Below, in pieces: positions 31,585 through 35,257 of a stretch of DNA of 64,000 nt (the stretch's first letter is position 1; the number at the start of each line of letters is the position of its first letter). The stretch spans positions 3,410,001 through 3,474,000 of the forward strand of contig NZ_CP082249.1 of the NCBI RefSeq assembly GCF_019879105.1, written 5' to 3'. Under the pieces are notes generated by a model. That model saw nothing but the letters and a program-made list of their open reading frames with translations, ran no database searches and was not told the origin of the DNA. The position numbers and the translations under genes were made by a program. The DNA is from Natrinema sp. SYSU A 869. GTDB lineage: Archaea > Halobacteriota > Halobacteria > Halobacteriales > Natrialbaceae.

Positions 31585-32214
31585 ATGTTCGACGACAGAA
31601 CCGACGCCGGCGAACGCCTCGCAGCGGAACTCGAGGCCCGCGACCTCGCGGTCGACGTCGTCCTCGGGATTCCCCGCGGAGCCCTACCCGTGGCGCGGCC
31701 GGTCGCCGACGCACTCGACGCCGACCTCGACGTCGTCGTCGCACGGAAAATGGGGGCACCACAGAACCCCGAGTTGGCGCTCGGCGCAGTCGCGAGCGAC
31801 GGGAGCGTCTGGTACAACGACGATCTGATCGATCGAATAAACGCTTCCGAAGAGTATCTCGAGGAGGTCCGGGCCGAGGAAGCCGAAAACGCGCGCAAAA
31901 AGGCGGATCGCTACCGCGAACCGGGCGGCCTGCCCGACCTTCAGGGGAAGCGAGTCCTGCTCGTCGACGACGGCGTCGCGACCGGCGCGACCGCGACGGC
32001 CTGCCTCCGACAGGTCCAAGAGACCGGGGCTGACTGGGTCGGCCTAGCCGTCCCCGTGGGCTCACCGCGGGCGGTTGACGATCTCGAGCGGGAGGCCGAC
32101 GCGGTGATCGCTCTGCAGACGCCCACGGACTTCCGCGCCGTCGGCCAATTCTACCGAACCTTCGGACAGGTGAGCGACGAGGAGGCGCTCGAGTACCTCG
32201 ATCGAGAATCGTGA
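31585..32214 (+). CDS. Phosphoribosyltransferase family protein
   Basis: 209 residues, type I PRT fold. GIPRGALPVARPVADAL, metal/PRPP loop VLLVDDGVATGATATACL (about 132-149) and VPVGSP. Resembles the free-standing erythromycin-esterase-associated PRTs often annotated only by domain. Base specificity unknown. Starts immediately divergent from the dehydratase. Confidence 0.88.
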   Translation: MFDDRTDAGERLAAELEARDLAVDVVLGIPRGALPVARPVADALDADLDVVVARKMGAPQNPELALGAVASDGSVWYNDDLIDRINASEEYLEEVRAEEAENARKKADRYREPGGLPDLQGKRVLLVDDGVATGATATACLRQVQETGADWVGLAVPVGSPRAVDDLEREADAVIALQTPTDFRAVGQFYRTFGQVSDEEALEYLDRES

Positions 32215-32269
32215 AACGAGCTCCCGGTCGATCCGGACGAACTACGTACTGCAGCAACCAGTCAACCGA

Positions 32270-32556
32270 CATGCGGCGGCGCGCGCTGGGCCAGGGCGAA
32301 CTGCGAGGCCTGAACGAAGTGAAGGCCTCGGTATTGTGAGCGGTGAGTGCAGGGAACCGTGAACAGACTGTGAGCCGTGGCACGAAGCCGTGCGAGGTCT
32401 TCGCGAACTTTGTGAGTGAAGGCGTGGAAGACGCTCGCGTCTTCCAGTGGATGAGCGAATAGTGCGGGACCAGAGGTCCCGCATACCATGCGAACGGGGG
32501 CGAAGCGCCCGTGTGCAGACGAAGTGAGCGTTAGCGCGGAACCTCCAGTTCCGCGA
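32270..32556. repeat. Chain of stem-loops (palindromic element)
   Basis: Six successive hairpins: 32304-32330 (7-base arms), 32380-32393 (5), 32426-32445 (8, loop 4), 32463-32483 (8, loop 5), 32494-32512 (5 plus 2) and 32535-32555 (8, loop 5). The sequence GTGAG or ATGAG recurs between them (32336, 32343, 32370, 32412, 32450, 32524). The last stem ends 4 bases before homology to the transposase begins. No convincing protein on either strand. Could be a mobile palindromic element or a structured RNA. Confidence 0.7.
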
Positions 32557-32559
32557 ACC

Positions 32560-33183
32560 ATACTCGGTCTTTCAGTGAATGAGTTGCCGGACTTCACCAC
32601 CATTTGTGCTCGGAAGCAAGACCTCAAGATGCCTGTCTGGCGGATGCTGTTGCAGCTGTCGGTGGTGTTATTCGATACCGGAGAGGTACAAGCAATCGAC
32701 TCAACTAGTATCGCTCATCGCTCGTCGAGCCATAACTACGCAAAACGTGTCAAAGGGACGTTTGAATCGGTCAAGACCACCATTCTTGTAGACTGCTCCA
32801 CGAGGGCTATCCTCGATGTACACTGCTCGATGAACCTACCACATGACACGCAGATTGCGTGGCAAGTACTGAAGAGAAATCTCAACAACGTGGAAACTGT
32901 CGTCGCTGACAAAGGGTTTGATTGGGATAAACTTCGACAGATGCTGCGAAACGAGGGTATTAGACCGGTAATCAAGCACCGTGAATTCTACTCACTCGAT
33001 GCAGCACACAATGCTCGGATTGATGATGAAACCAACCATCAACGTTCTATCGCAGAATCGATGTTTTTCGCATTGCGCAAACGGTTCGGTTCAACACTTA
33101 AGGCACGAACGTGGTTTGGGCAGTTCCGAGAACTCGTCCTTAAGACCGCTGTCAGAAACATCGAACAATCGCTCACGACCTAA
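32560..33183 (+). mobile_element. IS5-family transposase, 5'-truncated
   Basis: About 208 residues of a haloarchaeal IS5-type DDE transposase: LPDFTTICARKQDLKM, catalytic Asp in QAIDSTS, SVKTTILVDCSTRAILDVHC, Asp in VADKGFDWDKLR, IKHREF and Glu in QRSIAESMFFALRKRFG. The C-terminus is complete (ARTWFGQFRELVLKTAVRNIE). The first ~60 residues are missing: homology begins at ILGLSVNEL, directly next to the stem-loop chain. Base composition is lower in GC than neighbours. No terminal inverted repeats were recognised. Confidence 0.9.
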
Positions 33184-33783: not shown

Positions 33784-35109
33784 TTACGGCCAGAGGCCCC
33801 GCATCTCGTGGGCCTCGCCGACTCGGTCGAGCGCGACGGCATACGCAGCGTCGCGCCAGGAGACGTCCCGCCGTTCGACGGTCTCTTTCACGTCGGTCCA
33901 GGCCGCGACCATCTCGGACTCGAGTTCCTCGTTGACCCGCTCGAGGGACCACGCGCGGCGATTGATGTCCTGGAGCCACTCGAAGTAGCTGACCGTGACG
34001 CCGCCCGCGTTCGCGAGGATGTCCGGGACCACCCGAATCCCGCGTTCCTCGAGGATGGTGTCGGCGGCGAACGTCGTCGGGCCGTTCGCGCCTTCGACGA
34101 CGATATCGGCGGCGATCGCGTCGGCGTTGTTCGGTGTGATGACGTTGCCGACGGCAGCCGGGACGAGGACGTCGACGTCCAACTCGAGGAGGTCGTCGTT
34201 CGAGATCCGATGCACGCCGTCGGCGCTGTCGTCGACGCTGGCTGCGAATCGGGTCACCGCTTCCGGTTCCTCATCGTGAGAGGGGATCGCAGTGACGTCG
34301 ATCCCGTCGGGATCGTAGACCGCGCCGTTGACGTCGCTGACGGCGACGACGGTTGCACCCCACTCATCGAGCAGGCGGGCGGCGTTCGCGCCGACGCTGC
34401 CGAAGCCCTGAACGGCGACGGTCGTCTCAGCGAGCGGGTAGTTATAGTACTCGCACGTCTCTCGAGTGACGATGGCGACGCTTCGGCCGGGCGCTTCTTC
34501 GCGACCGTAACTGCCGCCGACGCTGGGCGGCTTCCCGGTGACGACACCGGGGATCGTTTCGCCTTCCTGCATGCTGTAGGCGTCCATCAGCCAGGCCATC
34601 GTCTGCGGGTCGGTGCCCATATCCGGTGCCGGGATATCCGTGTTCGGGCCGATCACGTCGCGGATCTCTTGGGTGAACCGACGCGTGAGTCGTTCCTTCT
34701 CATTGGCGCTCAACGACTTTGGGTCGACAACGATGCCGCCTTTCGCGCCGCCGAAGGGGAGATCCATCACCGCACACTTCCAGGACATCCACATCGACAG
34801 GCCGACGCACTCGTCGCGAGTCACGTCGGGATGATACCGCAGCCCGCCCTTATAGGGGCCGCGGACGCTGTCGTGTTGGGCCCTGTAGCCGGTGAAGACC
34901 TCGACGCTGCCGTCGTCGCGCTCGAGGGGAATCGTCACCTCGTGGACCGCTGCGGGGTGTGAGAGACGCTCGATGACGGCGTCGTCGACGTCTAACTGTG
35001 CGGCGACGCGGTCGAGCTGTCGGCGCGCGGTCTCGAGTGCGGTTTCCGGATCGGTCGATGCGGCCGTCGCTTCCTGGGTCGGTGTTGACGAACGTTCCTG
35101 AGAGGACAT
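33784..35109 (-). CDS. gdhA: Glutamate dehydrogenase
   Basis: 441 residues; reversible oxidative deamination of glutamate to 2-oxoglutarate. [21 protein letters not shown], catalytic Lys in [12 protein letters not shown] (about 115-126), IPAPDMGT, dinucleotide fold [17 protein letters not shown] (about 240) and the C-terminal EGANGPTT. Haloarchaea often carry several gdh paralogues, so NAD versus NADP preference is open. Start MSSQERSS at 35109, one base after the rubrerythrin-like gene's stop. Confidence 0.94.
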
Positions 35110-35110
35110 A

Positions 35111-35257
35111 TTACTCGATCGGTGTCCGTCGATTCCGCATCTCAGCACCGCACTCGGGACAGGCGTCCGGCGCTGTCGCACGGACGACGGTTCCACAATC
35201 GAAGCATTCGTAGGTCGATTCCGTCTGCGGATCGAGTTCCGCGTCTTTATGGTTCAT
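35111..35257 (-). CDS. Rubrerythrin-like zinc-ribbon microprotein
   Basis: 48 residues, [21 protein letters not shown] ... CPECG ... RRTPIE. A single rubredoxin/rubrerythrin-type ribbon (CFDC and CPEC). It ends one base before the gdh start codon, so it is very probably cotranscribed and translationally coupled with glutamate dehydrogenase. Its role is unknown. Confidence 0.85.

Follow-up and report, generated by a model that had tools for sequence, protein, structure and literature searches.

Within a 64,000-nt window of the Natrinema sp. SYSU A 869 genome (the whole stretch of DNA analysed here; NZ_CP082249.1, positions 3,410,001 to 3,474,000), a chain of hairpins runs directly into a truncated transposase, which raises the question of what the chain is and whether it has anything to do with its neighbor. 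Successive hairpins are confirmed in the sequence from 32290 to 32561, and the + strand of 32240-32580 has a fold energy of -149.2 kcal/mol, as against -129.8 ± 5.7 kcal/mol for dinucleotide shuffles (z = -3.4; 0 of 100 shuffles equally stable). The first-pass annotation, which had reported a run of hairpins over some 290 bases with limits at 32270 and 32556, was correct to a few bases; the last hairpin closes at ~32557, and the sequence of the element continues as far as 32561. It was also right that the last stem adjoins an IS5-family transposase, the homology to which starts at ~32562 (DDE_Tnp_1, E = 2.6e-15). Inverted repeats are abundant in genomes with a high G+C content, and the chain could in principle be a collection of mutually unrelated GC-rich hairpins that arose by chance; this explanation is already refuted, and we give it virtually no weight, in view of the z-score above, the ends and core that recur unchanged in kind across dozens of copies and in 61 genera, and the covariation within the stems.

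Comparison of the segment with its own genome (5.67 Mb in three contigs) gave 65 matches on both strands, all of them on the 3.9-Mb contig. On the main chromosome there are about 55 5′ ends, good 3′ ends number about 45, and nearly every partial match adjoins one of these; the other two contigs have no credible element end. When the copies are compared side by side two fixed ends emerge, TGCGGTGGCGCGCGCTG at the 5′ side and AATCGGCTGGGGAGGGCGTGG at the 3′ side, the latter followed in this genus by CGATTCCCTGTTGCCACGATAGCAGGAC, and the two end motifs are spaced 62 to 368 nt apart. The median identity of the copies is ~83%. The segment at 32272-32561 is a 3′-truncated copy of this dispersed family, with the 5′ end and hairpins present and the 3′ end absent, and the covariance model scores it at only 18.6 bits. 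The check proposed in the first-pass annotation, a search for dispersed copies with the same ends, was thus positive, both in this genome and in other haloarchaea. Some local arrangements of copies on contig C3 were also seen. Tail-to-tail pairs lie within a few hundred bases of one another at 1075639/1075979, 2807801/2808140, 2829398/2829750, 1834825/1835036 and 3874122/3874537 (G000:C3); the 5′ end of the element is tandemly repeated (ATGCGGTGGCGCATGCTACCGATGCGATGGAACGTGCTGATCGACCGT...) before one copy at ~2213950-2214080 (L010:540-700); and a MITE-like palindrome with ends TATAGTAGCCACTGAAA/TTTCAGTGGCTACTATA is located in the 3′ end of one copy at ~464200-464310 on the - strand (L024).

The copies share a core of ~140 nt, in which helix P0 closes a hairpin, P1, and is followed by AGG, helix P2 and a near-invariant AATCGGYTGGGGAGGGYGTGG block. 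In a set of 27 diverse copies, 98.7% of the cells of P0 and P2 are paired, compared with at most 51% when the partners are slid; double changes occur in 50 cells, against 15.6 in shuffles, and the covariation score is 0.48 against 0.225. All four Watson-Crick combinations are found at the best pairs. The stem bases read GAAC...GTGA or GAGC...GCGA, which form tandem G.A/A.G pairs, and the recurring GTGAG remarked on in the first-pass annotation is real, being one half of this motif. Three such tandem steps stand amid covarying standard pairs in P2 and are kept in 36-41 of 42 copies, and the single tandem G.A step of P1 is kept in 31 of 34; for the 40-nt P1 class, no covariation was resolved in the register used. 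The fold is of the structured-RNA kind, with compensatory changes beyond both the shuffled and the slid controls, and its preservation in diverged paralogs points to selection on the folded strand. The covariation check suggested in the first-pass annotation was thus positive too. Summed over the pair tables, G-U is far more frequent than A-C (~59 versus ~9 cells), and tandem G.A pairs have no stable counterpart on the opposite strand, so that the + strand is identified as the folding strand. The tolerance of G-U pairs leans towards this strand folding as RNA rather than as single-stranded DNA. Of the two possibilities offered in the first-pass annotation, a structured non-coding RNA therefore holds as far as structure is concerned, by strong covariation and the + strand fold; that the structure is formed by RNA we infer.

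Several variations on the core deserve mention. In L074, L108 and the genomes of genus g48 (G158 and G181), P0 is closed directly by a short loop, without P1 (GGCGCGCGCGAGCAACGCGCGCGAGGG), and P1 is therefore optional. A second type of 3′ part follows the G-rich block in some 20 copies, which come from genomes resembling those of Haladaptatus and Haloferax (L116, L118, L135, L174, L178, L181, L295, L300, L308 and L311); it reads GACTGAAAGGGGCCG, a long stem and GGGGGCTTTC, with GAAAG pairing CTTTC, and may be a distinct domain at the 3′ side of the same RNA. Visual inspection of Natrialbales-type copies suggested a possible 3′-end pseudoknot, in which GGGGA with TCCC crosses GTGGC with GCCAC. 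Folding gives no support to a G-quadruplex in the GGYTGGGGAGGGYGTGG block (1 of 60 cores).

Placed on this framework, the window copy, which lies on the + strand throughout, is readily dissected. Its conserved 5′ end, TGCGGCGGCGCGCGCTG, occupies 32272-32288, as judged from 55 such ends among the copies and from information content. Family covariation places the 5′ strand of P0 at 32280-32285 and its partner at 32389-32394, within a stretch (32389-32397) that ends in the conserved AGG. From the covariation of the P1 class, the 5′ strand of P1 at 32290-32303, with the GAAC of a tandem G.A step, is paired to 32368-32381, which supplies the GTGA. The apical loop of P1 (32303-32366) holds two extra hairpin modules, at 32303-32331 and 32338-32366, that are absent from short copies; a similar module is present in the P1 loop of one ortholog at site 3382698 and not in the other. 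Two further modules (32398-32423 and 32424-32448, the latter with 10-bp arms) lie between GCGAGG and GATGAG, at 32398-32448, by inverted-repeat listing and copy comparison. Family covariation of P2 assigns its 5′ base, GGATGAGCGA, to 32449-32458. Two more hairpins, TAGTGCGGGACC...GGTCCCGCA and GCGAACGGGGGCGAAGCGCCCGTGTGC, fill 32460-32519 as inverted repeats with near-identical modules in other copies, and CGAAGTGAGCG at 32520-32530 is, from comparison with other copies, probably the 3′ side of P2. A final module of the TTAGCGCGGAACC...GGTTCCGCGAACCAT type (32531-32561), recognized by copy comparison, is where the element stops, with the conserved G-rich block and the 3′ end missing.

The extra hairpins of longer copies are additions at a few points, namely inside the P1 loop, where GCGAGG meets GATGAG, and at the foot of P2 on its 3′ side, and it is because extra hairpins are added at few fixed points that the element reads as a chain. 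Their presence varies between orthologs: at site 3382698 the P1 loop is plain in the Natrinema sp. SYSU A 869 copy, whereas a double hairpin of ~65 nt occupies exactly that point in the G052 ortholog, and at sites 1636584 and 2317193 the modules are in the former and none is in the G052 ortholog. Copies within the genome that carry the same modules are up to 94% identical, compared with 82-89% for orthologs at the same site. This greater likeness of same-module paralogs fits recombination or gene conversion between copies. Efficient gene conversion between genome copies has been reported for polyploid Haloferax (PMC11276520), and the exchange of modules seen here might by analogy be tied to that process.

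The relation of the element to the transposase is apparent from the same locus in other species. The element lies downstream of a phosphoribosyltransferase gene (31585-32214, + strand, assigned by domain match), which also adjoins the intact element in relatives. On its other side, an IS5-family remnant that lacks its N-terminal part (32562-33183, + strand; homology to other copies from ~32562) intrudes from outside the element; beyond it, a convergent 470-aa ORF (33784-35196, - strand) reads as a putative glutamate dehydrogenase, the 3′ end of which lies past the element in relatives. At this site one relative has an intact compact element (L370), two have an intact element with modules (L374 and L375), one (L366, from G052) retains a 5′ half whose P1 modules match those of the window copy, and three (L367, L371 and L379) have short remnants; the others have nothing. 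No transposase is present at the site in the stretches read from relatives. The element is ancestral at this position because relatives hold it there without a transposase, and the IS5 remnant, which has lost its own 5′ end, marks a later rearrangement. The other possibility in the first-pass annotation, a palindromic mobile element that had cut the transposase, stands with respect to its dispersed copies and falls with respect to the cutting, given that L370, L374 and L375 have the element at the same gene junction without the transposase. In L366 this copy was truncated independently, and a small ORF resembling a cold-shock protein comes after it.

Seventeen sites were compared across species of the genus, some read in part, and the element is in the same place, missing, or reduced to a decayed remnant, depending on the relative. 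The seven genomes sampled yielded no near-identical copies at different loci. Because sites are shared and such near-identical copies are lacking, the copies are mostly old and inherited, with new insertions rare or not recent. Spacers at filled and empty sites are too diverged to fix the junction, so neither sharp ends nor a target duplication can be defined, and terminal inverted repeats of the MITE type are absent, the 5′ and 3′ consensus ends being unrelated. These observations bear on the alternative of a selfish, non-autonomous mobile element without host function, in which the folded + strand, as single-stranded DNA or RNA, would be recognized by a reverse transcriptase or transposase encoded at another place, in the manner of PATEs derived from IS200/IS605 or of REPs driven by RAYT. 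The large number of scattered copies in both orientations, presence and absence at the same site between species, patchy copy number, the decay of some copies and the lack of constant neighbors would all be expected of it. Against it stand the lack of near-identical copies just described, the undefined ends and target duplication, the pairing that most copies retain at strongly varying positions, and the restriction of copies to the main chromosome, with TnpB genes mostly elsewhere and none near an element. No partner gene for spread was found among the neighbors examined. We give a purely selfish mobile element a fair probability, lower than that of the reading favored below.

By the covariance model, 255 of the 391 Halobacteria genomes carry the family, which is represented in 61 of the 86 genera; among the matches listed in a pattern scan of named genomes are Natrinema, Haloterrigena, Natronococcus, Haladaptatus, Halorussus, Halococcus, Halogranum, Halopiger, Halolamina, Halobium and others. 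In a wider sample of the phylum there was only a single marginal match outside the class and order of the window. Fifteen viral-contig matches to the G-rich motif, in which the 5′ part is absent, look like chance and were set aside. Within the taxonomic family, the exact 5′ 14-mer is present in 63 of 125 genomes, at 0 to ~80 copies; one genus can hold both zero-copy and many-copy genomes, and several species have none. The element is therefore dispensable. In some genera there are just one to three copies, at sites common to different species, and this, together with the complex conserved fold, would suit a family of trans-acting non-coding RNA genes, each copy with its own transcript and several redundant. 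We consider this improbable, as no promoter-like conserved block was seen upstream (strong conservation begins only ~25 nt before the fold) and a range of 0 to ~80 copies is odd for an RNA gene. Covariance models give no match in Rfam, and the literature searched contains no named family, an earlier description in the subscription literature outside that search being possible; the family is previously uncatalogued in these sources.

The genomic context of the copies offers a further clue. Overlap with an ORF occurs in 2 of 104 copies in named genomes and in none of the 46 in the Natrinema sp. SYSU A 869 genome. With genes called by a simple codon model, so that the counts are approximate, the upstream gene is co-oriented for 65 of 102 copies (p = 0.007), the element starting at a median of 66 nt past the stop; convergent gaps are enriched (36/99 versus 71/336, p = 0.003) and divergent gaps depleted (13/99 versus 98/336, p = 0.001). 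The neighbors are assorted housekeeping genes, none of them constant. The segment thus belongs to a family of dispersed, folded, intergenic elements, and we favor, with moderate confidence, the reading in which transcription of upstream genes extends into them. Most copies would then form the 3′ tail of an mRNA from the upstream gene and would act, or would once have acted, as folded RNA at gene ends; they would be inherited over long periods, seldom seeding new sites, would swap and gain hairpins through recombination or gene conversion with one another, and would decay where they are not maintained. At the window site, an old element beside the phosphoribosyltransferase gene would later have lost its 3′ end at the junction with the IS5 remnant. 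This 3′-end reading has to contend with the range of copy number within one family and the species that have no copy, with the variable neighboring genes, with the decayed orthologs, which are unexpected if every copy is needed, and with more than a third of copies not following a co-oriented gene.

Among known systems, the family most resembles, by analogy, the ERIC and REP-BIME repeats of enterobacteria, with a far more elaborate fold. Those repeats are dispersed, intergenic and structured, occur in dozens of copies per genome, can reside in convergent gaps and behind genes without evident harm, vary between species and have internal insertions at fixed points. The haloarchaeal family shares its dispersal, intergenic position, folding, dozens of copies, location at 3′ ends and in convergent gaps, variability between species, and fixed-point insertions with them; it differs in its closed P0, tandem G.A helices, near-invariant G-rich block and several hairpin modules. 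Unlike RAYT-driven REPs, it has no linked RAYT-like gene among the element neighbors examined, which are unrelated metabolic genes. The stand-alone omega RNAs of IS605/TnpB have a structured single-strand core and multiple dispersed copies, as does the haloarchaeal family; however, TnpB genes are mostly on contigs without elements and the nearest to any element is ~10 kb away, and an omega-RNA reading was rejected on this position. OLE, ROOL and GOLLD RNAs are typically encoded in few copies by bacteria and phages, whereas the present family, restricted to haloarchaea, attains ~80 copies in a genome. The likeness lies in the elaborate conserved fold with peripheral helices, which in OLE, ROOL and GOLLD has no obvious function (PMC12286853). 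The PATEs and SMRs of Haloquadratum are transposase-free, of non-coding length, dispersed and heterogeneous, with no target duplications detected; PATEs have near-terminal palindromes in common with IS605-type transposons, and their homogeneous types are >90% identical (PMC3119063). The haloarchaeal family is likewise transposase-free, too short to code, dispersed and heterogeneous, but its conservation lies in an internal folded core, its median identity is lower, and no link to TnpB was found: element ends occur only on C3 and none is near a strong TnpB match, by comparison of positions.

These results describe a folded element, found in most genera of one archaeal class and often in dozens of copies per genome, that has no Rfam entry, and they explain many hairpin-rich haloarchaeal spacers that would otherwise be taken as separate oddities. 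They also raise the questions of how such repeats spread when no transposition is seen and how a folded core acquires hairpins in its loops. Haloferax, Natrinema and Haladaptatus are tractable hosts in which ERIC/REP-like repeats could be tested as RNA at gene ends. We tentatively propose a wider role, in which a haloarchaea-wide RNA family, with up to ~80 diverged, fold-preserving copies per genome, would use its tandem G.A core and G-rich block to bind a protein or shape mRNA 3′ ends; if true, archaea would have an RNA regulon, or a processing signal, that extends over the whole chromosome.
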